Shown: positions 2,872 to 63,404 of the stretch, piece by piece
Numbering within the stretch: the stretch's first letter is position 1
Layout: the number at the start of each line of letters is the position of its first letter
DNA from: an uncultured Porphyromonas sp.
GTDB taxonomy: Bacteria; Bacteroidota; Bacteroidia; Bacteroidales; Porphyromonadaceae
DNA: 64,000 bases
Direction: 5' to 3'
NCBI GenBank assembly: GCA_934364985.1
Contig: CAKRMU010000002.1
Location: 62,001 to 126,000 of the forward strand
Program-made: the position numbers and the translations under genes
The notes under the pieces: model-generated
Told to the model about the DNA's origin: nothing
Databases searched by the model: none
Seen by the model: the letters and a program-made list of their open reading frames with translations, nothing else

Positions 2872-3004
2872 TCACTTGGGAATCCTGTAAAACTAATACC
2901 TGATATTAGTCGGGACGAATATAGGGAATCCGCCAAAGCTAATACCAAGTATTCGTTTCGACGAATATAGGGTATTCGTTTCGTAGCATTTTGACTAAGT
3001 ATTC
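2872..3004. repeat. 23-bp palindromic repeat array 1
   Basis: Four clear units start at 2895, 2918, 2941 and 2964, exactly 23 bp apart. The cores are AATACCTGATATT, AATATAGGGAATC, AATACCAAGTATT and AATATAGGGTATT. A degenerate half unit sits one period earlier at 2872, and an AAGTATTC remnant follows near 2997 after TTTTGAC (2989-2995). The gap 2744-3291 otherwise holds only the hairpin and the fimbrial promoter. Confidence 0.9.
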
Positions 3005-3104
3005 TTGTATTGTGTGAGAAAGGGGAATACACGGAGTATCGTGATGAGTGTGATAGGTGGTATAGTTATCATAAAATATCAGCCTTCTTTAATTATATTA
3101 AAAG

Positions 3105-3136
3105 CTTGTAAAAGTGGCATTGTTTTTGTATTTTTG
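3105..3136 (+). promoter_or_regulatory. Bacteroidetes-type promoter of the fimbrial operon
   Basis: The -7 element TATTTTTG is at 3129-3136. The -33-like element CTTG (one mismatch to TTTG) is at 3105-3108, with a 20-base spacer. Transcription would start near 3143, leaving a leader of about 150 bases before the ATG at 3292. Confidence 0.6.
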
Positions 3137-3291
3137 TGTCACTTTTGGTATGGTGGTGTCGCTTGCTCCTCTTTGTAGGAATAGTTAGCTATAGATTTAT
3201 CGCCATGCACACTATGCAATAAATGAAAGAACCATAATGCTCTCCCTTATTGAGGGGCGGGTGCTCAAATATCAACAAAAAAAAGAAGTCA

Positions 3292-5802
3292 ATGTACAGA
3301 ATCATCACATCTCGGGCTTGCCTTTTGGTATGTCTCCTATCGATGCTGTCATGTGTGGGATGTCAGAGACAGAGGGAAATAGATGAGCCTGAGGCTCGGA
3401 GTGAGATACAGTTTCATGCTTTCGTCAGTAACCAATTGAAAGGAGCAAACGAGACCCTCTCAACACTATCAAAGAGTGGCTTTAATATCCGAGCTTACGG
3501 ACAGGGACAGCTCTACTTTGAGGATAGGGTGACCGCCACCGAGACAGGTGCCGGCACCGGCGTTTGGAATACTACAAGTACCCATATGTGGCCAAGCTAT
3601 GATCTTGACTTTATTGGGTACAATGGTCTTGGTGTCTATGGCACATTAGATATTGACGCTTCAAATAAGAGCATAAAGCTGAGTACTCCTGAGCAGGTGG
3701 AGCAGCAAGTGGATCTTCTTGTAGCTCGCACGATGGGGCGAGTAGCTGAGCATGGCATAGATGGAGTACCGCTTTACTTTAAGCACCTCCTCTCTCAGAT
3801 TTCTGTGCAGGCAAAAAATAGCAATAAAGCATATCAGATAGAGGTGGCGGGTGTAAAGATCGCACGCATACTATCACAGGGTACTTTCGCACTTCCTTCC
3901 GAGATAAAGCTCAGCGATGAGCTAACCAGTTACACCGATCTAAGTACCCCTAAGAGTTTCGGGATGAGTACCCCTAAGGTGCTTACTTTGGGCGAAACAC
4001 CTCAGTGGATCGGCAATAGTGCCAAGGGTAACTTTATGCTCATCCCTCAGTTGCTTACAGCGTGGAATAGAGCAACGGAGGCGGGGGGAGCGAAGGACAA
4101 CGAGGGTGCCTACATCGGATTATTGCTTAGGATCACCACACCGGCAGGAGCACAATACTATCCACTCGAGAAGGGGAAGTATGCCTATGTAGCGGTGCCA
4201 CTCTCCATACCCGGAGGTATGAAGGCTGGAGTTCACTATAAGGTGACACTGGATCTTAGCAAGGGAGCAGGCTATCAAGAGCCTAAGCTTGGCAATGGTG
4301 TACCTACCGACTTGCCTGAGGGAGTGGAGGTAAGCACTAAGCCTTGGGGCGGAATGGAGAAACCAGGCGAAGCAATATTAGGTGGAGCGATTGCGTTTGA
4401 CGTATCGGTTGAGCCATGGAAAGATAAGAGCATCGACCTTCAGCTGGAAGCCGATCAGCGAAAGCCTATCACGATGCAATATGGTAGTTTACGAAAAGTC
4501 TTCTCGATCCCCAAGGATGCTACCGAGCTAAAGGAGAGCGATATTCCGAAGGTAATAATGCCCGGGCGGAAGTTTATCCGCTGGGAAGATGGCAAGGGAA
4601 ATGCCATTACATTCCCATACCCCCTAACGAATGACTTTGTACTCACCGCCAAATTGGAGTCTTACTATGCGACGTTAGTCGTACCACAGGGGTTCCAATT
4701 CAAGAGCGATAAATCAACCGGCAATAAGCGGTTGGAATTGACCGAAGAGGGACACTTGCCAGAGTTACCAGAGTTAGAAGCAAAGAAAGGAACGGTCTCT
4801 AACCCTCAAGATACGAGAGGCTTTGTAGGGTGGACTAAAGATACCAACCCGACCATTGACTCCGAAGTGGTGTCAAAGAAGACGATATTGGATAGTGATG
4901 TAGAGCTACATGCCATTCTTACATCAGGAGTCGTTTCCAAAACCACAGGTGCCGAACTCTATTATATACCGGGGACAGGTGGGTCACGGCCAAAGTTCTT
5001 TACCTTTGCACGTGGTGTGACCTCTCATAGTGGATTAGATGGAATTGAAATACAAAATCTCTATGTGGCAAAATACCCCGTCACTCAAGCAGAGTATCAG
5101 CAGGTAATGGGCAGTAACCCATCCTACTTCTCAGACCCAGACAAATCCCGTTTCGCAGGCAATCGCTTTAATGGAGTAACTCGTACAAAAGCAAGCGAGA
5201 GACCTGTAGAGTCGGTCACCTGGATGGATGCCATACGGTTCTGCAATAAGCTTAGCGAAAGGGATGGCTTAACTGCCGTCTACACTATAATGGGTGACGC
5301 ACCGGAGCAGGTGACACGCGATCCTAATGCCAATGGCTACCGTCTTCCTACTGAGGCCGAGTGGATATGGATATCCACTTCTGCAAGTGGAGAGAATGAC
5401 AGAAGCATAGCTCTCCAAAGGGCCGTAGCTATTCCTGCCAACTTTGCTTGGTTTAGAGATAATGCAATGCTTGGTGCTGAAAAAAGTCTGAATTCAAAGG
5501 TATGGCAGGCATTTACTAATCCTGAATATGGCACGAAACCAGTAGGGAGGAAGCAACCTAATGAGCTGGGAATCTACGATATGAGCGGGAATGTGTGGGA
5601 ATGGGTCGAAGACTGGTATGGGGAGCGCACCTACGAGCGTGACAATGGACCTTTGAGTGGCACTTATAAGGTGCTGAAAGGTGGTAGCTTCCACTCAGAT
5701 AAGAAGTTCCTTAAAGTGGATTACCGAAAGAAATACTTGCCCGACCGTACCGATAAGGTGATCGGCTTCCGAGTCGTCCGTAATGTGAGAGCTATCAACT
5801 AA
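3292..5802 (+). CDS. Fimbrillin-family lipoprotein fused to an FGE/SUMF1-like domain
   Basis: The 836-residue protein has a lipoprotein signal (MYRIITSRACLLVCLL, candidate lipid Cys at 21 or 24). It continues with a fimbrillin/Mfa-like region (about 35-380) closely similar in order and wording to the protein at 8435-9598, for example KHLLSQI and VAGVKI. Two InlB-B-repeat-like segments follow (about 390-540). The C-terminal domain (about 575-832) looks like a formylglycine-generating-enzyme/sulfatase-modifying fold: YPVTQAEYQQVMG, RLPTEAEW, GNVWEWVEDWYG, LKGGSF, IGFRVVR. ATG 3292 is preferred over the in-frame TTG 3250 because it begins the signal peptide. It heads the operon and could be a tip adhesin or minor pilin. 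Catalysis by the FGE-like part is unproven. Confidence 0.8.
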   Translation: MYRIITSRACLLVCLLSMLSCVGCQRQREIDEPEARSEIQFHAFVSNQLKGANETLSTLSKSGFNIRAYGQGQLYFEDRVTATETGAGTGVWNTTSTHMWPSYDLDFIGYNGLGVYGTLDIDASNKSIKLSTPEQVEQQVDLLVARTMGRVAEHGIDGVPLYFKHLLSQISVQAKNSNKAYQIEVAGVKIARILSQGTFALPSEIKLSDELTSYTDLSTPKSFGMSTPKVLTLGETPQWIGNSAKGNFMLIPQLLTAWNRATEAGGAKDNEGAYIGLLLRITTPAGAQYYPLEKGKYAYVAVPLSIPGGMKAGVHYKVTLDLSKGAGYQEPKLGNGVPTDLPEGVEVSTKPWGGMEKPGEAILGGAIAFDVSVEPWKDKSIDLQLEADQRKPITMQYGSLRKVFSIPKDATELKESDIPKVIMPGRKFIRWEDGKGNAITFPYPLTNDFVLTAKLESYYATLVVPQGFQFKSDKSTGNKRLELTEEGHLPELPELEAKKGTVSNPQDTRGFVGWTKDTNPTIDSEVVSKKTILDSDVELHAILTSGVVSKTTGAELYYIPGTGGSRPKFFTFARGVTSHSGLDGIEIQNLYVAKYPVTQAEYQQVMGSNPSYFSDPDKSRFAGNRFNGVTRTKASERPVESVTWMDAIRFCNKLSERDGLTAVYTIMGDAPEQVTRDPNANGYRLPTEAEWIWISTSASGENDRSIALQRAVAIPANFAWFRDNAMLGAEKSLNSKVWQAFTNPEYGTKPVGRKQPNELGIYDMSGNVWEWVEDWYGERTYERDNGPLSGTYKVLKGGSFHSDKKFLKVDYRKKYLPDRTDKVIGFRVVRNVRAIN

Positions 5803-5840
5803 GTAAGCGAATAAAGAATATAGATAAGTAAGTGAGACTT

Positions 5841-6812
5841 ATGAGGACTAATATATTAGTAACCCTACTCTTTGGTACACTCATAGTGGCGTGGGGGGCA
5901 TCACCTCTCTATGGGCAAGTGCTACAGGAGAATTGGTGGAGAAACGGCAAGTATACGATAGAGGATGTTGCCGACCCGGTCTACGCCTATGACGAAGAAT
6001 TTATGCGAGACGCCCCAAATATCTATCTACCAATTGAAAAAAACGGGAAGCTTCCTGCGGTCATCGTGATTCATGGATATGGTGCAACGAAAGATCAGAT
6101 GCGACCAACGGCACAACTTCTTGCGTCGCATGGAATGATTGTATTGGTTTATACAGCAATGGATCAGAACCAACCATTTCAATGGTTAGACGGACTTGTC
6201 GCGGCCTTTCATCTACTTGAGGGAGAGAACCGCCGTCCTGAGTCAAAAATATATAATAGAGTAGACTTTCAGAGGATTGGTCTACTCGGACACTCTATGG
6301 GAGGTGCAGGGGTATTGCATTCGGCAGCGATGGAGAAACCCAATGGGCTACAGGGAAAGATTAAGACAGTGGTGGGTATGATGCCTTACCACGGAACGAC
6401 TAGTGCCTTCACTGATGAGATCGCAGGTGGAAAAGATAAGCTTGGCTGTGACATTTCTACCACTCCAAATGCTACACTTATCATCTCCGGAGAGGTCGAC
6501 AATACAAATGAACCTATAGGTGGCTATGAGTTTTATCAGACACTAAAGAAGAATAAGAGAGTCTTCTTTTCTCTGAAAGGAACAAGCCACATTGACTGGA
6601 TGAATAAGTCTGGCATAAACTCTAAGTATTATCCGGTGGCAATGCCTGTCATTACTGCTTGGATGCTCACTTACCTCTGTGGGGAAAATCAGTATGAAAG
6701 CTACTTCAAAGAGGGAGGACTTTATTTTGAGATGTGGGTACGCCCTACGCTCAAAGGAAATGTTAAAGAGGGTAGAGGAGAATTCCCTGCTTTTGAAATA
6801 AAAGAACCTTAA
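5841..6812 (+). CDS. Secreted alpha/beta hydrolase (dienelactone hydrolase/PETase-like fold)
   Basis: The protein is 323 residues with an N-terminal signal peptide (MRTNILVTLLFGTLIVAWG) and so should act in the periplasm or outside. The fold is shown by the oxyanion segment VIVIHGYGATKDQ, the nucleophile elbow GHSMGGAG, the acid-bearing strand LIISGEVDNTNEP and a late His in GTSHIDWM. This set resembles the chlorophyllase, dienelactone-hydrolase and cutinase-like polyester hydrolase group. ATG 5841 is chosen over GTG 5832, nine bases upstream. It lies 38 bases after the fimbrillin-FGE gene and 6 bases before the DUF3575 gene, inside the fimbrial operon, where a hydrolase is unusual. Its substrate cannot be told from sequence. 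Confidence 0.8.
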   Translation: MRTNILVTLLFGTLIVAWGASPLYGQVLQENWWRNGKYTIEDVADPVYAYDEEFMRDAPNIYLPIEKNGKLPAVIVIHGYGATKDQMRPTAQLLASHGMIVLVYTAMDQNQPFQWLDGLVAAFHLLEGENRRPESKIYNRVDFQRIGLLGHSMGGAGVLHSAAMEKPNGLQGKIKTVVGMMPYHGTTSAFTDEIAGGKDKLGCDISTTPNATLIISGEVDNTNEPIGGYEFYQTLKKNKRVFFSLKGTSHIDWMNKSGINSKYYPVAMPVITAWMLTYLCGENQYESYFKEGGLYFEMWVRPTLKGNVKEGRGEFPAFEIKEP

Positions 6813-6818
6813 AAAGGA

Positions 6819-7454
6819 ATGAAGAGAGATATGAGGTATAATAATGCGATACGATGCTTATTTATTGCATTATTATCGCTGTGTACTAAGCCCCTTATGG
6901 GACAAGCAAGGCAGATATTAGAAGAGCAACAGGCTCCCTCTGAGGTGCGTCGAAGCTGGCTTTCTGTACGGAGCAATGCTTTGGCAGATATAGCATTGGT
7001 GCCTAATTTAGGCTTAGAAGCATTCATAGGAGAGCATTGGAGCTGTGAGGTCTCCGGCTATGGTGCGTGGTGGGCAAAGCCTAAGGCCAACTTCTTCTAT
7101 CGTCTAAGAGGCTTAGAGAGTGAGGTCAAGTATTGGCTTGGACAGAGGGAGCAAGGGGGCATAGGACATCACATTGGGCTCTATGCTCTACTCTTTGATT
7201 ACAACTTTCAAGTGGGAGGAAAAGGGATATTAGGCGATAGCCCTCACTTTGGTGTAGGTGTGGCATATGGTTATGCTTGGAGCCTTGGTAAGCAGTGGTC
7301 TTTAGAGGGGACCATAGGGATAGGTTATCTCCATGGCATTTTTAAGCAGTATGGGAAGCAGACAAATGGTTGTTTTCCGTGGGAGGCAACGAAACGACTC
7401 GATTTTGTCGGGCCGACCAAGCTTTCACTTTCACTCGTATATAGGTTATGGTAA
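6819..7454 (+). CDS. DUF3575-like fimbrial-operon outer-membrane protein
   Basis: The protein is 211 residues with a signal peptide ending near PLMGQA. It then has alternating hydrophobic and aromatic strands (GLEAFIGEHWSCEVSGYGAWW, GIGHHIGLYALLFDYNFQ, SLEGTIGIGYLHGIF, KLSLSLVYRLW) that suggest a small outer-membrane beta-barrel. The pattern and the place immediately before a DUF5119-like gene match the DUF3575 family found in Bacteroidales fimbrial loci. The stop overlaps the next start (ATGGTAA), implying coupled translation. It probably helps surface assembly or anchoring, but this is inferred from context. Confidence 0.75.
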   Translation: MKRDMRYNNAIRCLFIALLSLCTKPLMGQARQILEEQQAPSEVRRSWLSVRSNALADIALVPNLGLEAFIGEHWSCEVSGYGAWWAKPKANFFYRLRGLESEVKYWLGQREQGGIGHHIGLYALLFDYNFQVGGKGILGDSPHFGVGVAYGYAWSLGKQWSLEGTIGIGYLHGIFKQYGKQTNGCFPWEATKRLDFVGPTKLSLSLVYRLW

Positions 7455-8392
7455 AGGGACTAAAATATATCGTGCTGCTCCTGCTCCCGCTTCTCTTTGT
7501 CCAGTGCCGGCACATAGAGCTTTGCTACTCCGAGGCGGTAGAGGTGGAAGTTCGTTTTGATTGGTCTCAAGTACCTGAGCCACACGTGGCAGGCATGACC
7601 ACTTACTTCTTTCCTTTGGATAATGGTTCCACACCAGTGCGACGAGATTTCAAAGATAAGACAGGAGGATCCACAACGTTGCGTGACGGAAGCTATAGAG
7701 TGGTAGCATTCAACAACACCTCAAGCATTCTACAGCACAGGGGTGAAGAGCGATATGAGACATTAGAGAGCTTTACTCGTGATTGCAACCCACTTTCAGG
7801 AGCACTTCTATCACTGAGGGATCCATCGTGGGATGCCGGGAAGGACTTCCGATTACAGCCTGAGCCTTTTTATGCAGGACGAATAAAGGAGACGAAGATT
7901 GTGCCACAAGCCGATGGCACACCTCGGCAAGTGGTGACTATAGTGATGGAACCACGTTATAGGGAAGTGCGTATCCGATTGACCAATGTGCAGGGCTTGC
8001 AGGGAGTATATGGCATCTCGGCAGGCTTTGGAGGCGTAGTGCCAAGCTACTTTATAGGGTTGGATAAGTGGCACGAGGGGAGCGTCTACCATCCTGTAGC
8101 CATGAATATCAAGGGACAGGAAGTAGAGGGCAATATGTTGACCTATGGATTGCTTCCCAGAGCAAAGGGCGGGCAACAAGAGCTAATCCTCTATGTAGTG
8201 ATGGCTGATGGCAAAGGCTATACTTACAGCTTTGATGTTACAGATCAAGTGGAGAAGCAAAAGGGAAAAGCTGTGGTTGATATAAAATTGGAAGAAGAGT
8301 TGAAATTACCTCGGATAGACGAATCGGTTCGTAGTGGACTTAGCATCACAGTGGAAAGCTGGAGGAAAGTCTACGTAAACATTAAGATGTAA
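7448..8392 (+). CDS. DUF5119-like fimbrial lipoprotein
   Basis: The 314-residue lipoprotein begins MVKGLKYIVLLLLPLLFVQC, with Cys20 as the lipid site although the residue before it (Gln) is atypical. The early RHIELCYSEAVEVEVRFDW stretch matches the start of DUF5119 proteins as I know them. The rest is a beta-rich domain like those of fimbrillin-associated anchor or assembly proteins. It overlaps the DUF3575 gene by seven bases and lies 42 bases before the fimbrillin at 8435. A role as fimbrial anchor or accessory protein, comparable to FimB or Mfa2, is an inference from position. Confidence 0.7.
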   Translation: MVKGLKYIVLLLLPLLFVQCRHIELCYSEAVEVEVRFDWSQVPEPHVAGMTTYFFPLDNGSTPVRRDFKDKTGGSTTLRDGSYRVVAFNNTSSILQHRGEERYETLESFTRDCNPLSGALLSLRDPSWDAGKDFRLQPEPFYAGRIKETKIVPQADGTPRQVVTIVMEPRYREVRIRLTNVQGLQGVYGISAGFGGVVPSYFIGLDKWHEGSVYHPVAMNIKGQEVEGNMLTYGLLPRAKGGQQELILYVVMADGKGYTYSFDVTDQVEKQKGKAVVDIKLEEELKLPRIDESVRSGLSITVESWRKVYVNIKM

Positions 8393-8434
8393 GGACTCTT
8401 AATAAGTAAATACATAAATTAATAGAAAGAGAAT

Positions 8435-9598: not shown

Positions 9599-9621
9599 CA
9601 TATGTAATAGCCATGGATCAT

Positions 9622-9658
9622 GCTGTGCCTGACTCCATTTTCGGATGTTAGGCACAGC
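9622..9658 (+). terminator. Hairpin between the two fimbrillin genes
   Basis: Arms 9622-9633 (GCTGTGCCTGAC) and 9647-9658 pair over 12 bp with one mismatch. No U-run follows, so it may stabilise the 3' end of the upstream fimbrillin message or act as a partial terminator that lowers expression of the next gene. Confidence 0.5.
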
Positions 9659-16543: not shown

Positions 16544-16592
16544 CCAAAAAAGCCCAACCCTTTGAGTCTTTGTCCTCGTCAACAAAAAATCG

Positions 16593-16698
16593 GATACCTG
16601 ATATTAGCCTAAGGAAATACCCGGTATCCGTCAGAGCTAATTCCCTATATCCGCCAAGACGAATATAGGGAATCCGTTTTTGTGAAATATAGGGCAAT
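16593..16698. repeat. 23-bp palindromic repeat array 2
   Basis: Units start at 16593, 16616, 16639 and 16662 (exact 23-bp steps), and a fifth degenerate unit begins near 16686. Cores include GATACCTGATATT, AATACCCGGTATC, AATTCCCTATATC and AATATAGGGAATC. It lies in the divergent gap 16512-16932. Flanks are a GTCAACAAAAAATCGG start and a CCGTTTTTGTGA end, which are partly inverted copies of each other. Confidence 0.9.
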
Positions 16699-25892: not shown

Positions 25893-25966
25893 TAGAGGGC
25901 GTTTAAAGGGGCTATACAGGGAGTCCCTTTATATTCTTTAAATCCATATTATTACTATAGTCTTAA

Positions 25967-26071
25967 GGTATCAAGTATCAGCTCAGGAGGATACCTGGTA
26001 TTAGCTCCGACGAATATAGGGAATTCGTCTCGACTAATATCAGGTATCCGCTAAGCCTAATAGCATCCTAT
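25967..26071. repeat. 23-bp palindromic repeat array 3
   Basis: Units start at 25967, 25990, 26013, 26036 and 26059, all 23 bp apart. Cores are GGTATCAAGTATC, GATACCTGGTATT, AATATAGGGAATT, AATATCAGGTATC and the degenerate AATAGCATCCTAT. It fills the centre of the 298-base gap between miaA and cdd. Confidence 0.9.
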
Positions 26072-33012: not shown

Positions 33013-33078
33013 TTTTTTGAATTATTTTCTCGCTCCTCAATTTTCGCATCGCACGAATAATCATCCTCACAATTAAGG

Positions 33079-33112
33079 GTGCTATGCATAGGTACGCTCT
33101 CGAGCATAGCAC
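33079..33112. repeat. Inverted repeat in the 32.9-33.3 kb gap
   Basis: Perfect 9-bp arms GTGCTATGC (33079-33087) and 33104-33112 with a 16-base loop lie between the oxidoreductase promoter and repeat array 4. No U-run follows clearly; it may be a weak terminator for the lipoprotein gene read from the right. Confidence 0.35.
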
Positions 33113-33174
33113 TAAGTCTCTCTTTAGCTTATCATCCTTATGATGACAAAATGAATCATTTCACCTCGCTACCG

Positions 33175-33256
33175 GATACTTGAGATGCAGAGGGCTGAGA
33201 ATCCGATATTAGTACTAAAAGATACCCGATATCCATAGATGCTGATATCGGGTACT
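33175..33256. repeat. 23-bp palindromic repeat array 4
   Basis: Units start at 33175, 33198, 33221 and 33244, exact 23-bp steps. Cores are GATACTTGAGATG, AGAATCCGATATT, GATACCCGATATC and GATATCGGGTACT. It lies about 85 bases beyond the end of the small lipoprotein gene. Confidence 0.85.
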
Positions 33257-33340
33257 TTCTAACTTATTATGCGATATAGTATATCAAATACACCTATTGT
33301 AAAAGCTGAACTACAACGGCAAATTGCAATTTCATACCTT

Positions 33341-33960: not shown

Positions 33961-35334
33961 CTAGTACTGATAATAATCTGGAATATTTGTTTCTTCGCCA
34001 GCATCGCTCAAAATAGTAGGATGGTTAGAGTCAAAAACTCCAGGGGTAAAATATCCATCATTTAGACCACCCCAGCCCCAATTACAATGAACAAAAATTC
34101 TATTCTCAATATGACTTGCAATAACTTTATTAGTATTATTGTCAATAGTCTTCCTTTCCCTTTCTTGCACTACTAAACCATCTACAAGCCAAGCATGACC
34201 TCCTTTATAAATGGTTTTTGGATGTTTGAAAATCCACCATCCTACCATCTCTTTTCCACGCTCAGAATTACCCCTCATAATGACAGGTCTGAGTTGCTTT
34301 ATACTATTAATAAGTCCTTGTTCAAAATAGGGTGTCAAATCAGACGGATTTTTATACCCCATATTCCTCAACATTGAAACAATGTTACCAGTATATGCTT
34401 TTGTACCTGTAGTACCCCAAGAGTTTCCTAATTCGTCACCAATTGTCCTAAGATATTGAGACACCTGCTTTGCATATTTTTGATAATCATCATTGAAATA
34501 ATCACTAAAAGAAGAATACTTATTTAAATAATCCCAATCTAAATCAATACCTTTGAATGAAATAGGATAATGATAGTACGATGTGAATTGTGCTGCGGCA
34601 ATAGCCACACAACCAGCCACTGCTCGTTTCCCATTTATTAACGGAGCACAATCATTGTATGGATAACCTTGACTCCATGTCACCTTTATCAGAGGCTTAA
34701 CTTCGGACTTCGTCTCCCAATTAGTATACTCAAATCTACACGAAATACCGGGGGAATCTCCATCTAATAAAGAATCACACGCTTGACTATTATCATTGTT
34801 TCTTTGCCTTGAGTCATATTCTTTCACCTTTTGGATATAATATATAGGCAACCTGGATAGATAAACGGCAAATCCAAAATTGTCTATTACTTCATCTTTA
34901 TCTAAGTGACCAGAATCCGTATAAAGTAGCAATTCCGATACTCTTTTATCACCCCAAACAACAACTACACCTCCATTATTCTTCTTATTAAGGATATAAA
35001 GTATAGTATCAACTGGTATGATATCTGAAGCGTCAGAATTTGATCTTAGTGAACCATTGCTAAGAACGACATCCACATCAAATTCGCTATCATCACAACG
35101 AGTTCTTAGCCCATCGCCATTTTGAATACTCTTTGCTATGAGAATTGCTTCTTCAATGCTTCTCTGTGGATTTAAGTTCACATCATCCCCATTGTTGTCG
35201 TCCACGCCTCTAAATGTAGGCACAGGATCAGAAGCACTCAGCTCTAATGAGCCACGTTGGGAGCAAGATATTAAAAGTATCTCGCCAATGGCTAATAAAA
35301 AAGTCAGCAATAAGCTTTGAATAATCTTATTCAT
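33961..35334 (-). CDS. C10 family (streptopain/PrtT/interpain-like) cysteine protease precursor
   Basis: The 457-residue protein has a lipoprotein-like signal (lipid Cys24 in LLISC). A propeptide region to about residue 205 follows, including RSIEEAILIAKSIQ as in Spi_C10 prodomains. The catalytic domain starts near VTWSQGYPYNDCAPLING. The nucleophile is Cys242 in AVAGCVAIAAAQ, and the His is H380 in YKGGHAWLVDGL, followed by HCNWGWGGLNDGYF. Such secreted proteases degrade host or dietary proteins and activate by removing the propeptide. Base composition is visibly more AT-rich than neighbouring genes, which suggests acquisition. It has its own promoter and a downstream lipoprotein partner. 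Confidence 0.9.
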   Translation of the reverse strand: MNKIIQSLLLTFLLAIGEILLISCSQRGSLELSASDPVPTFRGVDDNNGDDVNLNPQRSIEEAILIAKSIQNGDGLRTRCDDSEFDVDVVLSNGSLRSNSDASDIIPVDTILYILNKKNNGGVVVVWGDKRVSELLLYTDSGHLDKDEVIDNFGFAVYLSRLPIYYIQKVKEYDSRQRNNDNSQACDSLLDGDSPGISCRFEYTNWETKSEVKPLIKVTWSQGYPYNDCAPLINGKRAVAGCVAIAAAQFTSYYHYPISFKGIDLDWDYLNKYSSFSDYFNDDYQKYAKQVSQYLRTIGDELGNSWGTTGTKAYTGNIVSMLRNMGYKNPSDLTPYFEQGLINSIKQLRPVIMRGNSERGKEMVGWWIFKHPKTIYKGGHAWLVDGLVVQERERKTIDNNTNKVIASHIENRIFVHCNWGWGGLNDGYFTPGVFDSNHPTILSDAGEETNIPDYYQY

Positions 35335-36949: not shown

Positions 36950-36995
36950 CCATTCCGGCATTGCACCCAAGGACTACACTAAGCAGGGAAAAACA

Positions 36996-37100
36996 AATAC
37001 TTACTATTCGCTACAGCGTATTCCTGATATCCGCAAAAGTAAATACTTGGTATTCGCCGAGACGAATACCAAGTATTAGCTGAGCCTAATTCCAAGTATC
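36996..37100. repeat. 23-bp palindromic repeat array 5
   Basis: Units start at 36996, 37019, 37042, 37065 and 37088, all 23 bp apart. Cores are AATACTTACTATT, TATTCCTGATATC, AATACTTGGTATT, AATACCAAGTATT and AATTCCAAGTATC. It begins 47 bases after the recombinase stop and ends just before TTTTGAC (37104-37110). Confidence 0.9.
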
Positions 37101-37198
37101 CACTTTTGACTATTTCTGAAAAAGATAATAGTACTTTCAAGGATAAACATCTTCAAAGTTACAACTCAAGTGCCACAGAAATAATAATGCCCTCTAAA

Positions 37199-40233: not shown

Positions 40234-40269
40234 AAAGGGCAAGCCTTCACATGTGAAGGCTTGCCCTTT
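40234..40269 (+). terminator. Palindromic terminator after ackA
   Basis: A perfect 36-bp palindrome AAAGGGCAAGCCTTCACA... reads the same on both strands, with a stem ending in TTT. It lies 27 bases after the ackA stop. Confidence 0.8.
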
Positions 40270-40320
40270 AACTATTCCACTCCATAAAGCGACAAATCCC
40301 CAAAACCAATACCACAATAG

Positions 40321-40421
40321 GTCAAAAAGGATACCAGGTATTACCGAGAGCAAATACCGGGAATTCCTTTGACCAAATACCTGGAATTCATTAAGGCATA
40401 TTACGGATATTCATTTTTGAC
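40321..40421. repeat. 23-bp palindromic repeat array 6 with terminal inverted repeats
   Basis: Units start at 40330, 40353, 40376 and 40399, exact 23-bp steps. Cores are GATACCAGGTATT, AATACCGGGAATT, AATACCTGGAATT and TATTACGGATATT. It is bounded by a perfect 8-bp inverted repeat: GTCAAAAA at 40321-40328 and TTTTTGAC at 40414-40421, the clearest element-like ends of any array here. Confidence 0.9.
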
Positions 40422-44613: not shown

Positions 44614-44698
44614 CAAGCATCCTATGATCTTATTTATACCTCTCACGTACCATTACAACGCACTAAGACTACAGAAGATATAACCATCGCCGAAAATG

Positions 44699-44780
44699 AA
44701 TACCTGGTATTAGCCGAGACAAATACCCTGAATTCCCTTAGGCGAAGACCCTATATTCGTTGAGGCGAATACCCGGTATC
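44699..44780. repeat. 23-bp palindromic repeat array 7
   Basis: Units start at 44699, 44722, 44745 and 44768, exact 23-bp steps. Cores are AATACCTGGTATT, AATACCCTGAATT, AAGACCCTATATT and AATACCCGGTATC. It splits the biotin genes between bioB and bioA. The sequence right after it (CATATTTG at 44791-44798) is one base off a -7 element, so the array end could help to form the bioA promoter. Confidence 0.9.
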
Positions 44781-44874
44781 CGTTTCGCCTCATATTTGCG
44801 ACCTTAGTGCAACGACTCCCGCCTTTGATGACTACCCTTAGAGCAATAACGCAAAACATACAGTGAAACCAACG

Positions 44875-49498: not shown

Positions 49499-49527
49499 TT
49501 TACAGGATATCATAACGCCTAAAAACG

Positions 49528-49609
49528 GATACCCTATATTCGACTGAACGGATACCTGTAATACGCCCCGACTAATTCCCTAAATCAGCCGAGGCATATT
49601 ACGGGTATC
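49528..49609. repeat. 23-bp palindromic repeat array 8
   Basis: Units start at 49528, 49551, 49574 and 49597, exact 23-bp steps. Cores are GATACCCTATATT, GATACCTGTAATA, AATTCCCTAAATC and TATTACGGGTATC. It begins CCTAAAAACGGATACC and ends GGGTATCCGTTTTTTTTTA, an inverted pair of ends. It lies between the convergent bioD and lctP genes. Confidence 0.9.
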
Positions 49610-49648
49610 CGTTTTTTTTTATCTACAGAAATAAATAGGGAATATCCA

Positions 49649-54056: not shown

Positions 54057-54292
54057 CTTTTTGGGCGTTTTATTATTTACATTAAGGTCAGAATTTATTA
54101 CAAAAAGCCCATTATTTATGTGAAGTTATGATCAACCAATAAGAGAATAAAAGATGCGTAAATAACTAAATATGAGCTAAACAGAGCTATCATATACTCA
54201 AATACGATAGGCTTTTATGGTATAGCATTACTGAAGTAGCACTTTATAGGTACTGCCATACTGTAATGTAGATATGTAGCAATCCTAAACGG

Positions 54293-54420
54293 AATACCTG
54301 AAATCAGCCAAAACGGATACCCTGAATTCGTCTCGACTAATTCCCTATATTCGTTGTGACTAATACCAGATATCTTTTAGAGCGAATATAGGGTATCCGT
54401 TTGTAGCGATATTTTAATAG
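54293..54420. repeat. 23-bp palindromic repeat array 9 (longest)
   Basis: Six units start at 54293, 54316, 54339, 54362, 54385 and 54408, all 23 bp apart. Cores are AATACCTGAAATC, GATACCCTGAATT, AATTCCCTATATT, AATACCAGATATC, AATATAGGGTATC and a degenerate GATATTTTAATAG. The gap 53951-54901 also holds the lut promoter and the orphan transcription unit; the rest (about 54060-54290 and 54425-54660) is AT-rich with nothing recognised. Confidence 0.9.
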
Positions 54421-54768: not shown

Positions 54769-54786
54769 TTTTTCTATTAGGAAAGC

Positions 54787-57036: not shown

Positions 57037-58399
57037 ATCTTGAGTAGAATTCGGCAACTGTACGGATGCCGGTGTAGAAATTATGGAGTGGGAAATTCTC
57101 GTTGGGGGAGTGGATAGCATCGCTACCTAACCCGAAGCCCATTAGGATACTTTTGACACCTAATACTCGCTCAAAGGTGGCGATGATAGGGATACTACCG
57201 CCGGAGCGAGTGGCGAGTGGTCGCTTGCCGAATGTGGTCTCGTAAGCATCTTCTGCCACCTTATAAATAGGCAAATCACCGGGGCAGAGGTAAGGAGTAC
57301 CGCCATGCAGGTATTCGACTTTCACCTCTACGCCCTCCGGAGCTATTGACTTAACGTAGTCAATAAATGCTTGGGCGATCTTCTTTTCGTCCTGATTAGC
57401 CACAAGGCGAGTGGAAACTTTGGCAAAAGCTTTGCCGGGCAATATGGTCTTGGCTCCTTCGCCTTGGTAACCGCCCCATATGCCACATAGGTCGAAGCTG
57501 GGTCTTGAACCCGTCCGCTCAATCGTGTGGTAACCCTCTTCGCCGGATAGCTCCTTTACGCCAATCTCTTTTTTGTACTTATCCTCATCAAAAGGTATCC
57601 TTTTGGTCATCTCTCTATCGCTTTCAGTCATTTCGACGACATCATCATAGAAGCCCGGAATAGTGACCTTACCTTGCTCGTTCTGCATCTGAGCAATCAT
57701 CTTACATAGGGCATTAAGAGGGTTAGCCACAGCACCGCCATAGATACCAGAGTGGAGATCGTGGCTTGGACCTGTGACCTCTATCTGCCAGTAACATAGG
57801 CCTCGGAGCCCAACGGTCATGGATGGATGCTCCACGCTGAGCATACCCGTATCGCTTACTAATATATAGTCGCTTTTGAGCATCGCCTTATGCTCCTCGC
57901 AGAAAGCCTCAAGACTAACGGAGCCAATCTCCTCCTCTCCCTCAAGCATCACCTTGACATTACAGCGAAGGAGGTCGAGTTTAATCGCCGTCTCCAGCCC
58001 CTTTACCTGGCACATCGTTTGTCCCTTATCGTCATCCGCACCACGAGCATAGAGGACCCCATCACGCACCTCCGGCTCAAAGGCAGGTGACTTCCATAGC
58101 TCCAATGGCTCAGGAGGCATCACATCGTAATGCCCATAAACGAGTACCGTTGGGTAGCTCCGGTCAAGAATCTTCTCGGCATAAACCACCGAATTACCCT
58201 TAGTAGGCATTACCTCAGCTTTGTCCATTCCACTCTTTAGGAGTAGCTCTCGCCAATGCTGAGCACACCTATCCATATCCGGTTTGTGTGCCGATTGCGA
58301 GCTAACAGATGGGATACGAATCAATCCGAACAGCTCCTCTAAGAAACGCTCTTTATGCTCCTCTACGTAAGCATTAATCTTGTCAGTGTTGTTACTCAT
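57020..58399 (-). CDS. M20 family dipeptidase
   Basis: The 459-residue zinc peptidase is read from ATG 58399 (MSNNTDKINAYVEEH). Zinc ligands and the catalytic pair are in VLVYGHYDVMPPEP, RGADDDKGQTM, LEGEEEIGS, LVSDTGML and a late His in SDAIHSPNENFPLHNF. The dimerisation domain (about 200-310) has LHSGIYGGAVANPLNAL. Such cytosolic enzymes (PepV/CNDP-like) cut dipeptides brought in by the POT transporter. It is first in its group, with a promoter close upstream. Confidence 0.92.
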   Translation of the reverse strand: MSNNTDKINAYVEEHKERFLEELFGLIRIPSVSSQSAHKPDMDRCAQHWRELLLKSGMDKAEVMPTKGNSVVYAEKILDRSYPTVLVYGHYDVMPPEPLELWKSPAFEPEVRDGVLYARGADDDKGQTMCQVKGLETAIKLDLLRCNVKVMLEGEEEIGSVSLEAFCEEHKAMLKSDYILVSDTGMLSVEHPSMTVGLRGLCYWQIEVTGPSHDLHSGIYGGAVANPLNALCKMIAQMQNEQGKVTIPGFYDDVVEMTESDREMTKRIPFDEDKYKKEIGVKELSGEEGYHTIERTGSRPSFDLCGIWGGYQGEGAKTILPGKAFAKVSTRLVANQDEKKIAQAFIDYVKSIAPEGVEVKVEYLHGGTPYLCPGDLPIYKVAEDAYETTFGKRPLATRSGGSIPIIATFERVLGVKSILMGFGLGSDAIHSPNENFPLHNFYTGIRTVAEFYSRYGHKQ

Positions 58400-58452
58400 A
58401 ATAGTATGATGTATATATTCAAAATAAAAAGTCCGCACTTCCCTCCCAAACC

Positions 58453-58483
58453 CAAAGTTACTGATTTTCTACAAAACGGCAAG
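58453..58483 (-). promoter_or_regulatory. Promoter of the dipeptidase-deaminase-PNP operon
   Basis: On the minus strand TAACTTTG is at 58460-58453, with CTTG (one mismatch) at 58483-58480 and a 19-base spacer, ending about 53 bases before the ATG. Confidence 0.55.
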
Positions 58484-58551
58484 CGAATACCGAAATCCTT
58501 TGCCCCCAATGGACATACTTCCACCTACACGTGCATATATTAAACGAAATG

Positions 58552-58656
58552 AATACCCATAATACGCCTAAGCAAATACTTGGTATTCGTCAAAGCGTAT
58601 TCCCTATATTTGACCAGACGTATTCCGTATATCCGCTCTAGCGTATTACTTAAATC
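58552..58656. repeat. 23-bp palindromic repeat array 10
   Basis: Units start at 58552, 58575, 58598, 58621 and 58644, exact 23-bp steps. Cores are AATACCCATAATA, AATACTTGGTATT, TATTCCCTATATT, TATTCCGTATATC and TATTACTTAAATC. It fills the divergent gap between the dipeptidase and polysaccharide export promoters. Confidence 0.9.
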
Positions 58657-58770
58657 TACTTTTAGTGGTTTCTACCTCCATAAAATGGGATAGTCTACCA
58701 ATACTTTCACAAATAAAGGTTTGCATTTATGATTTATGCAACAAAAAAGTCTACTAAGCAATAATTTAAG

Positions 58771-58778
58771 TACATTTG
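58771..58778 (+). promoter_or_regulatory. -7 element of the polysaccharide export operon
   Basis: TACATTTG matches TAnnTTTG, 30 bases before ATG 58809, and overlaps the in-frame TTG at 58776. No -33 at the right spacing is clear. Confidence 0.5.
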
Positions 58779-58808
58779 CAGATAGGATTAAACCCTATAC
58801 TGATAATT

Positions 58809-59600
58809 ATGAGAAGAAAGGACTTTTCCGTAGCCATGATTTGGCTAATATTGATAGTGTTATGTGCCGGTGGTTGTGCTACCTCTAAAGACGTAGCCTA
58901 TATGCAATTTGCAGAGAATAGGATGCAGACCGAAGCGAAAGCCCTTCAGGATGCTACGATCAAGCCTAAAGACATCCTCACTGTGACCATACAAGCATCG
59001 CAGCCAGAATTAGTGGCAAGCTTCAACGGATTGTACTGGACCCCTCAGCAACAATACAGCTCTACACAGATGGGCATACGCACCTACCTCGTTGATAATA
59101 GTGGCACAATAGATCTGCCCATACTCAATAGGACCAATGTGGGAGGTCTTACCGTGAGAGACGCCGAGGAGTTAGTCAAGAAACAGCTAACGGCATATCT
59201 CAATGAGGAACCATCTGTAAATGTGCAGATTCAAAACTACCATTACTCAGTTATAGGTGAAGTGAAACGCCCCGGCTCATTCACTTCGGACAACGGCAAA
59301 GTGAGCCTTTTCGAAGCATTAGCCAATGCAGGAGACCTCACCATATATGGTATTAGGGACAATGTAAAGCTACTTCGGGAGAATCGCGATGGCTCCACGA
59401 CCATGGTGAGCCTCAACCTTAAAGATCCCGAGATAGTCAATTCGCCCTATTACTACCTACAACAAGGTGATGTGCTATATGTAATGCCCAATGATGCGAT
59501 TGCGTCATCGGCAAATATTAGTTCGGGTACAACGATTTGGATAAGCATCTCATCAATAGCCCTTACTATAGCCAATCTCATCGTCACCATTCTTAGATAA
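58809..59600 (+). CDS. Polysaccharide export lipoprotein (Wza-like)
   Basis: The 263-residue outer-membrane lipoprotein begins MRRKDFSVAMIWLILIVLCAGGC (lipid Cys23). It has the Poly_export domain (KPKDILTVTIQASQPELVASFNG ... YLVDNSGTIDLPILNRTNVGGLTVRDAEELVKKQLTAYL) and a SLBB segment (VIGEVKRPGSFTSDNGKVSLFEALANAGDLTIYG). A hydrophobic C-terminal segment (WISISSIALTIANLIVTIL) is present as in other Bacteroidetes members. It forms the export channel for capsule or exopolysaccharide. ATG 58809 is chosen over TTG 58776, which lies in the promoter. It is six bases upstream of the Wzc-like gene. Confidence 0.92.
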   Translation: MRRKDFSVAMIWLILIVLCAGGCATSKDVAYMQFAENRMQTEAKALQDATIKPKDILTVTIQASQPELVASFNGLYWTPQQQYSSTQMGIRTYLVDNSGTIDLPILNRTNVGGLTVRDAEELVKKQLTAYLNEEPSVNVQIQNYHYSVIGEVKRPGSFTSDNGKVSLFEALANAGDLTIYGIRDNVKLLRENRDGSTTMVSLNLKDPEIVNSPYYYLQQGDVLYVMPNDAIASSANISSGTTIWISISSIALTIANLIVTILR

Positions 59601-59606
59601 AGATGT

Positions 59607-62030
59607 ATGAATAATAGTTATTCCGACCCTTCGGAGAGGACCCCACGCAACAACATATCAGCAGAAAACGAAGTAGAGGAGATAGATCTACTATCAGCAG
59701 TAAATGAATATCTTCGCTACTGGCCCATATACCTAATCGCCATCGTAGCCTGCTTAGCCTTAGCGTGGATATACATAACCACACAAAAGCCGGCCTATCC
59801 CGTCAAAGCCTCAGTGCTATTTTTAGACCAAAAAGATAGCAAAAGTGCACAGATCCAAGGCCTTGATGTATTGGAGCTGGGTATGGGTGTGCAGAACGTC
59901 AATGTCGATAACGAGCTCGAGATACTACGCTCTCGAGAGATCCTCAAGAAGACCATCGAAGAGAGCTTAGAGTATGTCGAAGTGTACACTAGAGACAGAC
60001 TTCGGAAAAAGGTTTGGTACGAACACTTACCCTTTGAGATAACCATGGATCCCATTGGATTGAGCAAAATTGACCGTCCACTATCCTTCAACGTTCAGCC
60101 CAAAGGCGAAAACTCCTACGAAATCATCCCAGAGGAAGGCAACCCCATTTTAGTGGATTCCCTACCAAGTACCTTCTCACTCGGTGGAGGCATCGTCTCA
60201 ATATCAAAGCGAGATGTACCCGCAGATCAGACTACCGAAAACATAGCAGTGTATAACGTCAAGATATCTTCACCCCTCAAGCGAGCTATATATTACGCAG
60301 AAAAAGGTGGGCTAACAGCCGAAAGAGCTAACAAACAAAGCTCTGTCGCTATCCTCAGAATCAACACCTTTAATAGGGCAAAAGGAGAAGCCTTCCTTAA
60401 CAAACTTATCGAGGTCTACAATAGGGAACGAGCAATAGACAAGAACGCATCCGCTCAAAATACATATAACTTTATCAACGAACGTATTGAGCTTATCGGT
60501 AGAGAGCTTAGTGCAACAGAAGAAAAACTCGAAGCCGTAAAGAAGTCGCAAGGAGTTACCAGCTACGAAGACCTCGGAGTGGTAGTATCAAGTAGTGCCA
60601 CTATGGATATGCAACGCTCCGAAGCCGAGACACAGCTCAAGCTTGTTACCTTCCTTATCAACGACCTTGAGCAGAAACAAGATCGTTACGAGATCATACC
60701 TGGAAGCTTCGGATTTACCGATGGGACACTCCAGACTGCCGTCGACCTCTACAACCAAATGGTATTTGACCGCAACAACTTACTGGAATCCGCCAACCCT
60801 GATCACCCAAAAGTGCAGACGCTAACTAACAACTTAAAGGTGGCTCGCTCCAATATTTTGGAGGCGGCAAATGTCGCAAAACAAGGTCTTATGATCCAGC
60901 TATCCGGGCTTAAGGATCTTGAGAAAAGGTACAACTCAAAGATATCACAAGCCCCAACCTTTGAGCGTATAAGCACCGACATTGAGCGTCAACGTAGCAT
61001 CCGTTCAAACCTGTATTTAATGCTTCTGACAAGGAGAGAAGAGACATCCATAGAGTTAGCTGCGTCCTTGGAGAGTGCAAGAGTCATTGATGTCGCATTG
61101 GCAGATACGAAGCCTGCGACACCCAAAAAGACCATTATTTATCTCGTAGGACTATTATTTGGATTAGTGCTTCCGACACTATTTATATACCTTTATCGCC
61201 TAACGCGGACTAAGATAATGGTGGAGGATGATATCCGGAAGAATACCCACCTACCTATCGCAGGAAGCATACCTCGGACGGATGAAAACTCAAGCGAACT
61301 TGTGGTCAAGACAAGTGGCAATAGCGAGATGACGGAGGTCTTCCGTACACTACGAACGAATATCAGTTTCCTCACTCAGAACAAGCGACCTGTGGCATTA
61401 ATGGGGACTTCTACTGTGAGTGGGGAGGGGAAAACATTCGTCATGAGTAATCTTGCCATCTCGCTATCGGCTCTTAATGAGCGGGTACTTCTTCTGGGTC
61501 TTGACATACGTAACCCTCAGCTGAAGCGGACATTTGGCATTAAGAATAGTTCGGTAGGTGGAATGTCGGATCTACTCAATGATTCGTCTCTTGACCCACA
61601 TGACTTTATCCAGAAGCCCGATAACTACCCTAACTTATCTATCATCAACGCAGGTACGATTCCCCCCAATCCGCCAGAGCTACTTGCCCTACCAAGGCTT
61701 GAGGAGTTGTTTGAGATATTCCGTAGCGAATACGACTATATCATCATCGATAGTGCCCCAGTGGGGCCAGTGGTGGACTCATTAGTGCTCAGCAGGGTTG
61801 CCGACTATACGCTGTACGTCGTACGCTCGGGTAAGACGCAAAAGAAAGACTTTGAGTATATCAATTACCTTGATCAATACGATAAGCTACCAAATATTAG
61901 CATCGTGCTGAATGATATATACATCAAGGATTCTCTGCTTGTTAAGAGCTACGGCTATGGTTATGGTTATGGCTATGGTTATGGCTATGGTGGCGATCAA
62001 GATGCTAAGCACGGAGGGGAAAAGAAGTAA
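59607..62030 (+). CDS. Wzc-like chain-length regulator and tyrosine autokinase
   Basis: The 807-residue inner-membrane protein has a Wzz domain with two membrane helices (about 38-58 and 508-528) and a long periplasmic coiled-coil part (GNVR-type; RELSATEEKLEAVKKSQG). The cytoplasmic BY-kinase domain has Walker A GTSTVSGEGKT (near 600), Walker A' LLLGLDIRNPQ and Walker B YDYIIIDSAPVGPV. The C-terminal tail is a Tyr-Gly run followed by GGDQDAKHGGEKK, the autophosphorylation cluster. Phosphorylation there controls polymer length and export through the Wza partner. P. gingivalis has a comparable pair (Ptk1 and its Wza), as I recall. Confidence 0.93.
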   Translation: MNNSYSDPSERTPRNNISAENEVEEIDLLSAVNEYLRYWPIYLIAIVACLALAWIYITTQKPAYPVKASVLFLDQKDSKSAQIQGLDVLELGMGVQNVNVDNELEILRSREILKKTIEESLEYVEVYTRDRLRKKVWYEHLPFEITMDPIGLSKIDRPLSFNVQPKGENSYEIIPEEGNPILVDSLPSTFSLGGGIVSISKRDVPADQTTENIAVYNVKISSPLKRAIYYAEKGGLTAERANKQSSVAILRINTFNRAKGEAFLNKLIEVYNRERAIDKNASAQNTYNFINERIELIGRELSATEEKLEAVKKSQGVTSYEDLGVVVSSSATMDMQRSEAETQLKLVTFLINDLEQKQDRYEIIPGSFGFTDGTLQTAVDLYNQMVFDRNNLLESANPDHPKVQTLTNNLKVARSNILEAANVAKQGLMIQLSGLKDLEKRYNSKISQAPTFERISTDIERQRSIRSNLYLMLLTRREETSIELAASLESARVIDVALADTKPATPKKTIIYLVGLLFGLVLPTLFIYLYRLTRTKIMVEDDIRKNTHLPIAGSIPRTDENSSELVVKTSGNSEMTEVFRTLRTNISFLTQNKRPVALMGTSTVSGEGKTFVMSNLAISLSALNERVLLLGLDIRNPQLKRTFGIKNSSVGGMSDLLNDSSLDPHDFIQKPDNYPNLSIINAGTIPPNPPELLALPRLEELFEIFRSEYDYIIIDSAPVGPVVDSLVLSRVADYTLYVVRSGKTQKKDFEYINYLDQYDKLPNISIVLNDIYIKDSLLVKSYGYGYGYGYGYGYGGDQDAKHGGEKK
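61949..61992 (+). repeat. Hexamer-rich microsatellite in the tyrosine-kinase tail
   Basis: Seven successive Tyr-Gly codon pairs (TAC/TAT GGC/GGT) form an in-frame 6-bp repeat, with a 12-bp sub-period of GGCTATGGTTAT. Slippage by six bases would change the number of phosphorylatable tyrosines without breaking the frame. Confidence 0.8.
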
Positions 62031-62056
62031 TAAGCATTTACTAACATAGTTTTTCG

Positions 62057-62086
62057 GGTGGTGCGATCCTTGGTGGTCACACCACC
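62057..62086 (+). terminator. Hairpin between the kinase and porin genes
   Basis: Arms GGTGGTG (62057-62063) and CACCACC (62080-62086) pair over seven bp with a 16-base loop and are followed by TTATTA. It is a weak terminator or processing site. Confidence 0.4.
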
Positions 62087-62118
62087 TTATTATAAAACCC
62101 AAAGAGCATACACGCGAT

Positions 62119-63270
62119 ATGACACCTCAGAAAATCCTGATATCTTTCGTTGCCCTTACGGCAATATCTGCTAACTTATTTGCTCAACAAGAGCCTTTTG
62201 AGTCCGACACTTCGCTTGCCGAACGTATCGGTATCATCAAGCAGAAACAGGATAATTTTCAACTCTATTTTCACACCCACTTCTCTGGTGATTTACTATA
62301 TGACAAGAATGGCTTAGTGAATGGGGCTTTTCGGATGCCCGAAATACGGATTGAGTCACAGGCTAAGCTCACGAACCGGCTCTCCTTTAGGTGGAGACAG
62401 AGATTGAATAAAAACAATAAGGGGAGTAATAATGTCGATGCTCTTCCTCAGTCTATTGACATTGCAGGGCTGGGGATAACGCTCAGTGAGAAATGGAGTC
62501 TATTTATCGGGAAGCAGTGTGCAGCAGTTGGCGGATTTGAGTTTGATCTCAACCCTATTGAGGTCTACGAATTTAGCAATATGGGCGAATACATCAACCC
62601 TTACCTCACGGGTATCAGGGCTGTCTACCACCCTTCTGCTCGTCACGAGATACAAATAGAGGTGCTCAATTCGCTCAATGCTCCTTTTGCTGATAATTAC
62701 CCACTTGTGGAGGAGGTGCAGAATGCCAAGCTCCCTTTTGTCTACACGGTCAATTGGAATGGTCGGATGTGGGATCACTTTAGCACCCGTTGGAGCTATA
62801 GTTTTCTGCCACAAGGGGTGAAGGGCTCTCGGCATTATAATATGCACTACATCGCACTCGGAAATCAATTGGAGTTAGGCAAGGCCAAAAGCTATTTCGA
62901 TATCATGTACTCTAATGAGGGACTAAACCGCAAAGGGATCATCAGTAATCCTTATGATGTTGAGTACCTATCTTTTGTCCTTGAGATGCGATATGCCTTT
63001 AAACCCCAATGGCAATTTTTCCTAAAGGGTATGTACGAGACAGCAGGTGCAAAGGGTAGCAAAAGAAAGTCAAATACCCCACTTTGCTATCCCTTGATTA
63101 TGAATAGCTACGGCTACTCAGCGGGGATCGAGTATTACCCCCTTGTGGGTCAAAACCTGCATTTTTTCCTCACCTACGTGGGGAGAAGTCACCGACATGT
63201 GGACACCCGACTATCGAAAGATAGCCACCGTGCATCCCTCGGTTTCATTTATCAGATTCCGATATTCTAA
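62119..63270 (+). CDS. Outer-membrane porin, OprO/OprP-like
   Basis: The 383-residue protein has a signal peptide (MTPQKILISFVALTAISANLFAQ) and a beta-barrel ending in an aromatic residue (LGFIYQIPIF), as outer-membrane porins do. The pattern FQLYFHTHFSGDLLYD, FRMPEIRIESQAKLTNRLSFRWRQRLNK, LGITLSEKWSLFIGKQCAAVGGFEFDLNP resembles phosphate-selective porin O/P proteins of Bacteroidetes. It follows the Wzc-like gene by 88 bases with a weak hairpin between, so it may be partly co-transcribed. Whether it serves polysaccharide export or phosphate uptake is unknown. Confidence 0.75.
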   Translation: MTPQKILISFVALTAISANLFAQQEPFESDTSLAERIGIIKQKQDNFQLYFHTHFSGDLLYDKNGLVNGAFRMPEIRIESQAKLTNRLSFRWRQRLNKNNKGSNNVDALPQSIDIAGLGITLSEKWSLFIGKQCAAVGGFEFDLNPIEVYEFSNMGEYINPYLTGIRAVYHPSARHEIQIEVLNSLNAPFADNYPLVEEVQNAKLPFVYTVNWNGRMWDHFSTRWSYSFLPQGVKGSRHYNMHYIALGNQLELGKAKSYFDIMYSNEGLNRKGIISNPYDVEYLSFVLEMRYAFKPQWQFFLKGMYETAGAKGSKRKSNTPLCYPLIMNSYGYSAGIEYYPLVGQNLHFFLTYVGRSHRHVDTRLSKDSHRASLGFIYQIPIF

Positions 63271-63299
63271 ATTTTCTTATTGGGAATACAGTCAAGACG

Positions 63300-63404
63300 G
63301 ATACCCTATATTCATCGGGACAGATACCCTATATTCGTTAAAGCAAATACCCTATATTCGTCAAGACGAATATAGGGTATCCTATTTTTCTATTCCGGTA
63401 CTAT
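63300..63404. repeat. 23-bp palindromic repeat array 11 (most uniform)
   Basis: Units start at 63300, 63323, 63346 and 63369, exact 23-bp steps. The first three cores are almost identical (GATACCCTATATT twice, AATACCCTATATT) and the fourth, AATATAGGGTATC, is their near reverse complement. A degenerate copy follows near 63391 and possibly one precedes at 63277. It lies between the convergent porin and RluA-family genes. Confidence 0.9.

Follow-up and report, generated by a model that had tools for sequence, protein, structure and literature searches.

BrickBuilt is the closest described system to the arrays studied here. According to its published description, the 23-nt unit AGAYCATARTATCCTCTCRTRTG is repeated in tandem at intergenic sites dispersed in Porphyromonas gingivalis and P. 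gulae; the element has a leader and a tail together with IS5-like terminal repeats, and of its 19 copies in strain ATCC 33277, 4 have both repeats intact (PMC4596501). The same source mentions earlier descriptions of 22- and 23-nt tandem repeats in P. gingivalis W83, given without exact locations (PMC4596501). A sequence-only reading of a 64,000-nucleotide stretch from an uncultured Porphyromonas sp. (the whole stretch being hereafter called the window) had pointed to eleven intergenic arrays with an exact 23-bp period and had likened them to BrickBuilt, leaving homology open. This likeness holds for the period and the intergenic placement and fails for homology, which we rejected: the window unit RCGAATACCNGGTATTCGYYNNR has unrelated letters, its copies are diverged whereas those of BrickBuilt are nearly identical, and the window arrays, with flanks read by eye, share no arms or terminal repeats. 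The BrickBuilt pattern itself matched 2 of the 38 family genomes surveyed below (G018 and G020). Our literature search returned no description of the present array class.

The window contains 11 intergenic arrays with 47 units in total, weak in-phase units included; the initial range of four to six units per array is corrected to four or five. When the array regions were scanned iteratively with a weight matrix and the phase left unconstrained, 45 units were placed, and all 34 consecutive steps were of 23 bp. Every array was recovered with a leave-one-array-out matrix, the best three-unit chain reaching 18.6 to 68.9 bits per array and at most -2.3 bits outside the arrays, and 43 of the 47 units exceeded 5 bits under the same scoring. 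None of five Markov-resampled windows yielded an array. Among intergenic lags 12 to 60 of the window, lag 23 was dominant with 10 sites, followed by its double, lag 46 (5 sites), and lag 24 (1 site), all other lags having none. Tandem Repeats Finder detected only part of the window arrays because their units have diverged. Intergenic placement was borne out as well; the 105-aa frame at 63143-63460, which shares sequence with both the porin gene and array 11, was treated as spurious. As for the occupation of most gaps longer than 250 bp, arrays were present in 9 of 14 such gaps (10 of 16 gaps of at least 200 bp), and array 11 sits in a shorter one.

Four units of 23 bp make up array 1 (2892..2983), array 2 (16590..16681), flanked by divergent genes, and array 3 (25964..26055), whose first unit is weak and which array 9 matches as an inverted copy (pair I3). 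Array 4 (33172..33263) is degenerate and the weakest of the window, with four units in phase and one of the four above 5 bits. Five units were found in array 5 (36993..37107), array 9 (54290..54404) and array 10 (58549..58663), the last between divergent genes. The other four-unit arrays are array 6 (40327..40418), with ack on one side and a DUF4831 gene on the other, array 7 (44696..44787), between a biotin synthase gene and a class III aminotransferase gene, and arrays 8 (49525..49616) and 11 (63297..63388), both flanked by convergent genes. The 47 ORFs scanned in the window are ordinary chromosomal genes, with one XerC/D-like tyrosine recombinase and no transposase among them; neither a tRNA nor, at the gathering threshold, an Rfam match was found in the window. 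Long near-perfect, terminator-like hairpins, distinct from the arrays, adjoin arrays 1, 4 and 6 (2768-2820, 33069-33115 and 40236-40270, respectively). Near array 4, a gene at 33961-35334 belongs to the peptidase C10 family and also weakly matches a Spi-type inhibitor domain, and a single reading frame at 3250-5802 fuses a fimbrillin-like (Mfa_like_1) domain and an FGE-sulfatase domain.

Each unit is a dyad, RCGAATACC-N-GGTATTCGYY, within the consensus R C G A A T A C C N G G T A T T C G Y Y N N R, i.e., a 17-bp odd palindrome followed by a 6-bp linker that is dyad-symmetric too. The unit matrix correlates with its own reverse complement at 0.95 on one axis and at no more than 0.19 on the other 22. 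The last unit of an array is frequently the inverted asymmetric variant, AATATAGGG in place of CCCTATATT, and array borders read by eye often show a run of A before and a run of T after the array. These A/T runs excepted, no shared flanks or terminal repeats were seen by eye within 60 bp on each side of the 11 arrays. Since dyads can fold and several arrays are near gene ends, the arrays could be transcribed RNA hairpins, e.g., terminators or small RNAs. Yet the two arms of a unit pair below the permuted level both in the window (231 of 423 pairs versus 252 expected from permuted arms) and in the related genome G005 (914 of 1152 versus 940, p(<=)=0.0005). Half-sites thus avoid perfect palindromes, which may occur for a protein-bound dyad and not for a stem. 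Moreover, a linker-centred stem gave no signal (p 0.26), the covariation term of RNAalifold was -0.04 kcal/mol, and independent strong hairpins adjoin some arrays; dyad arms without covariation argue against RNA hairpins. Together with the lack of an Rfam match in the window, RNAalifold and the arm-pairing tests in two species led us to rule out an RNA hairpin or terminator, a reading to which we give almost no credence.

Relatives reached through BioB (P. somerae, P. levii, a Porphyromonas MAG and Porphyromonadaceae FC4) opened a set of 38 family genomes. Scanning them for the window motif, as the sequence-only reading had suggested, gave 0 to 2 loose matches per genome, with any match in 11 of the 38, compared to 0 to 3 for the reversed control and 6 in the 64 kb of the window: the window motif is lineage-specific, and what the relatives have is arrays of similar period in other letters. 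Over 783 kb of family sequence scanned for intergenic periodicity (lags 12-60, stretches shorter than 2.5 kb omitted and L246-L250 of G009, G006, G012 and G010 not scanned), 48 of 70 sites fell at lags 21-23, and 12 of the other 22 were a lag-12 repeat on one 2.9-kb contig. The same lags account for 5 of 20 sites in 266 kb of other Bacteroidales. Thirty family genomes were sampled over at least 10 kb each, and by the automatic criterion (thresholds of 34, 33 and 32 of 60 in successive scans) 24 of them have at least one site at lags 21-23, G030 and G022 being counted though weak by eye; the scanned stretches of G002, G006, G021, G027 and G031 have no such site, and that of Porphyromonadaceae FC4 (G004) shows the doubled lag only.

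Judged by eye, the family arrays displayed are mostly short runs of dyads whose letters differ between genomes. Idealised units are CTAATACCGGTATTAG in G005 and G008 (period 22, the window half-site on an even centre), TTATTCCTAGGAATAA in P. levii (period 22), CGAGTTACCATAACTCG and GAGGTATC-GATACCTC in G014 (period 23), GAGGGATATCCCTC in G029 (period 22), CCGACCWATATWGGTCGG in G023 (period 22), CGACCTACAGTAGGTCG in G025 (period 23) and TTGAATATATATATTCAA in G015 (period 21), with further letter variants elsewhere in the family. Besides its two families, G014 has a third array type of 22 bp with alternating dyads, GTGCATCAGCACCGTATATTGG (L087 from 14452). Near-identical 22-bp tandem repeats with more units than the diverged arrays, found in G016 (L166 from ~7796) and in G007 (contig C1 near 144290), resemble young, expanding minisatellites of the same period. 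G013 and G038, in which no Lrp gene was detected, have in common a 21-bp-period region (L038:12128-12315 and L049:11918-12085) that mixes CCACGTGG and CTTCGGAG-like dyads, with opposite orientations.

Of the relatives, G005 was sampled most fully: its 520 kb contain 48 arrays, of which 36 have four units, 12 have three and none has more, plus one isolated strong site; this search chained in-phase units only, so that it would overlook a single off-phase unit next to a three-unit array. Genome-wide, the G005 core pattern occurs at 369 places with at most 2 mismatches, and its reversed control at none. Mean pairwise identity among the 36 four-unit arrays is 0.84 for cores, 0.45 for linkers and 0.27 for the far flank: the cores are constrained, the linkers much less. 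These four-unit arrays are directional and have a short conserved left arm around CTGGTTATCAG. Scanned with the G005 matrix, G008 has arrays of two or three units only, and of two G005 arrays in alignable G008 regions, one is partly kept and one is lost. Sites therefore turn over, both genomes being still evenly spaced.

In the sister genomes G007 and G011, three arrays correspond in position, out of 4 found on the G011 contig and 5 on the corresponding G007 stretch; they are embedded in a conserved noncoding dispersed element of ~550 bp with dozens of copies in G007. Unit letters have partly changed between the two; a clean one-letter concerted change, suspected at one locus, was dropped since the genome-wide list shows a mixed shift in G011 (AACAGGTT, AACCCGTT and AACACGTT). 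Two P. levii arrays occupy gaps that hold arrays in the window, and a 22-bp P. levii array with unlike letters stands directly before the DUF4831 gene, the gene that window array 6 adjoins. Thirty loci of each kind were compared: lag 22 or 23 was the best periodicity in the gap preceding the DUF4831 gene at 5 loci and in the gap following the bioD-like gene at 1, with some arrays hidden by small spurious ORFs and the known P. levii array missed. Gap-by-gap conservation is therefore weak, the sisters G007 and G011 excepted, and we gave up conserved position as general evidence.

Along the chromosome, arrays keep their distance from one another more evenly than chance. An exclusion zone with filling describes the pattern best; strict periodicity is not evident. 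Gap-based nulls covered the window, G005, G008, G014 and a 100-kb stretch of G029. In them, arrays were redistributed randomly among the intergenic gaps of our own ORF maps, with a minimum gap length of 100, 150 or 200 bp and with or without weighting by length. For G005 (37 intervals between the 48 arrays, minimum 5554 bp, median 9228 bp, CV 0.40), the CV or the minimum was reached in 0 of 2000 trials under each of the six nulls, whose mean CV was 0.69-0.76. The 10 intervals of the window have a minimum of 3.3 kb and seven of them measure 3.3-4.8 kb (p(min) <=0.0002, p(CV) 0.007-0.013), and the 8 arrays of two or three units in G008 have a CV of 0.22 (p <=0.0004). For G014, with 12 of 13 matches used (one of two 252 bp apart being dropped), p(CV) was 0.03-0.04 and p(min) 0.07-0.09, two same-family arrays lying 2.3 kb apart. 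Eight lag-found sites in the 100-kb stretch of G029 were not even (p(CV) 0.86-0.92, p(min) 0.16-0.21).

The complete genome G029 has at least 104 distinct arrays according to a five-array model, with 150 of 1300 candidates scored and listed matches within 100 bp merged. Among the arrays listed, each 100 kb of chromosome holds 2-12, no array-empty region was seen, and 3 of 103 intervals are shorter than 4 kb, whereas uniform placement predicts 17.9 and gave so few in none of 5000 trials; the CV has p 0.035 against the same null. On contig C5 of G007, the one contig of that genome tested for spacing, 36 listed arrays have a minimum interval of 6.96 kb versus a mean minimum of 0.68 kb under uniform placement, after 6 of 42 listed matches were dropped (3 without the array linker, 2 from an already-counted array and 1 second block). 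As exceptions to the otherwise wide spacing, G007 has double blocks 83-98 bp apart at three places (C5, 772964 and 773062; C11, 55855 and 55938, 137531 and 137615), and the C5 minimum depends on counting the C5 double block (98 bp) as one array. Exclusion may act across motifs in G014, where other-motif arrays lie at least 5.1 kb from the arrays of one family (p 0.0008-0.009); cross-exclusion between two families was not seen in G007 (p 0.33-0.42).

The most serious rival explanation of the arrays is an old mobile element that excludes its neighbours. The arrays would be remnants of dispersed non-autonomous elements, MITE-like and of the BrickBuilt sort, and target immunity or purging of close copies, not host function, would keep them apart. 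An exclusion zone alone would account for the intervals, true periodicity being unneeded; the window motif is confined to its lineage, the four-unit G005 arrays have a direction and a left arm, and the ~550-bp element around the G007 and G011 arrays looks mobile in origin. BrickBuilt is moreover described as a MITE (PMC4596501). On the other hand, window arrays show no common flanks or terminal repeats by eye, and cores conserved relative to linkers with all window steps in phase are unlike neutral decay. A Mu-type transposase domain (PF09299) was detected barely above its cut-off of 21.7 bits in G005 (25.9 bits) and G004 (23.2 bits), both of them array-bearing, and is missing from the 36 other genomes, including the array-bearing G003, G007, G014 and G029; we rejected Tn7/Mu-like immunity on account of this distribution. 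Nor would element-specific immunity predict that other-motif arrays of G014 avoid one family. The window ORFs scanned include no transposase, one window array searched against phages and plasmids had no match, and 143 viral loci, drawn from 164 pattern-matching stretches (63 + 101 from two exact-pattern viral scans), contained no array, on which grounds a phage or plasmid origin was set aside. Overall, we regard a mobile origin as rather doubtful.

Selfish palindromes of the REP/BIME type, spread by a RAYT transposase, would likewise be short, intergenic, palindromic and in high copy. REPs, however, are described as mostly hairpin doublets or singlets, with a few tandem arrays and those at other spacings (PMC3116915). 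Direct arrays of 3-5 units in fixed phase, with arms avoiding perfect pairing, make this origin very improbable here.

The genes around the arrays bear on a further alternative, that of local operators which regulate the adjacent gene or operon and together form one large regulon. Repressor operators built of tandem dyads offer a parallel, e.g., those of phage lambda with 17 bp plus a 6-7 bp spacer, and arrays 1, 4 and 6 adjoin terminator-like hairpins. In the window, however, seven arrays have codirectional, two divergent and two convergent neighbours, and in G005 the arrangements of neighbouring genes (11, 9, 8 and 7 among 35 four-unit arrays) are neutral, 7 of the 35 lying between convergent genes, about as many as for each other arrangement. 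The genes flanking the window arrays have no common theme, and a regulon does not predict exclusion spacing. We consider local operators unlikely. That arrays exclude one another and disregard gene direction suggests a role at the level of the chromosome, which fits the spacing better than control of adjacent genes.

We propose, with about an even chance of being right, that the arrays are composite binding sites of a predicted oligomeric DNA-binding protein that probably organises the chromosome. The sequence shows dyad units, a rigid phase, a small and near-constant number of units, exclusion spacing and an intergenic placement indifferent to orientation, with a similar architecture in other letters in relatives; from these features we infer the protein, its oligomeric state and its architectural function. 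The phase of about two helical turns, the dyads, their small constant number, the constrained cores and the lack of stem covariation argue for a protein binding as side-by-side dimers. A putative sequence-specific protein would bind each 23-bp unit as a dimer, adjacent dimers would join, and one array would carry some four or five dimers assembled together, the DNA being wrapped or stacked so that each dimer takes up about two helical turns. Recurring every several kilobases with an exclusion zone, arrays may serve as anchors of loops or supercoil domains. A broader and more tentative possibility is a family-wide ruler, in which one multi-dimer complex would be kept every few kilobases, its letters rewritten by lineage as architecture and spacing persist, and arrays of unrelated sequence would be interchangeable.

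An Lrp octamer could hold four dyads, and Lrp/AsnC was attractive as the cognate protein because its four dimers match four dyads. This candidate, the one protein tested, was rejected: its recognition helix and the motif do not track, the helix being nearly identical in G014, G023 and G029, whose motifs differ (23 of 28 sequences aligned), and PF01037, present in 28 of the 38 genomes, was not found in the array-bearing G007 and G010, though draft assemblies could hide the gene.

Should the arrays prove to be bound and structural, they would constitute a sequence-marked system of chromosome organisation with exclusion spacing, making the spacing of bacterial chromosomal domains directly testable in a family that includes a main periodontal pathogen. 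If they are mobile, an exclusion rule of several kilobases, in one genome across motif families, would be unexplained by the transposons searched here. On either reading, this array class bears on the annotation and assembly of Porphyromonadaceae genomes.

Among known systems, REP, BIME and REPIN sequences are alike in being intergenic palindromes in high copy (PMC3116915) and unlike the present direct arrays with their exact phase, exclusion spacing and lack of hairpin constraint. BrickBuilt shares a tandem 23-nt unit and a dispersed intergenic location; its rotated unit is, on our reading of the published letters, an imperfect dyad, and as a class it resembles the G007 and G011 arrays, which also lie within a dispersed element. 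It differs from the window arrays, which have 4-5 diverged units and, by eye, no shared leader, tail or terminal repeats. Unlike CRISPR, the arrays advance in 23-bp unit steps with 6-bp linkers and no spacers. The sites of matS/MatP, SlmA and Noc are also chromosome-dispersed dyads, mostly independent of gene control; they are single sites, whereas the arrays have 3-5 units per site and letters that vary by species. Lrp octamer and phage CI operator arrays come close in local architecture, with tandem dyads about two helical turns apart and about four dimers, and differ in number, dozens to more than 100 arrays being present per genome here. The class extends beyond BrickBuilt.
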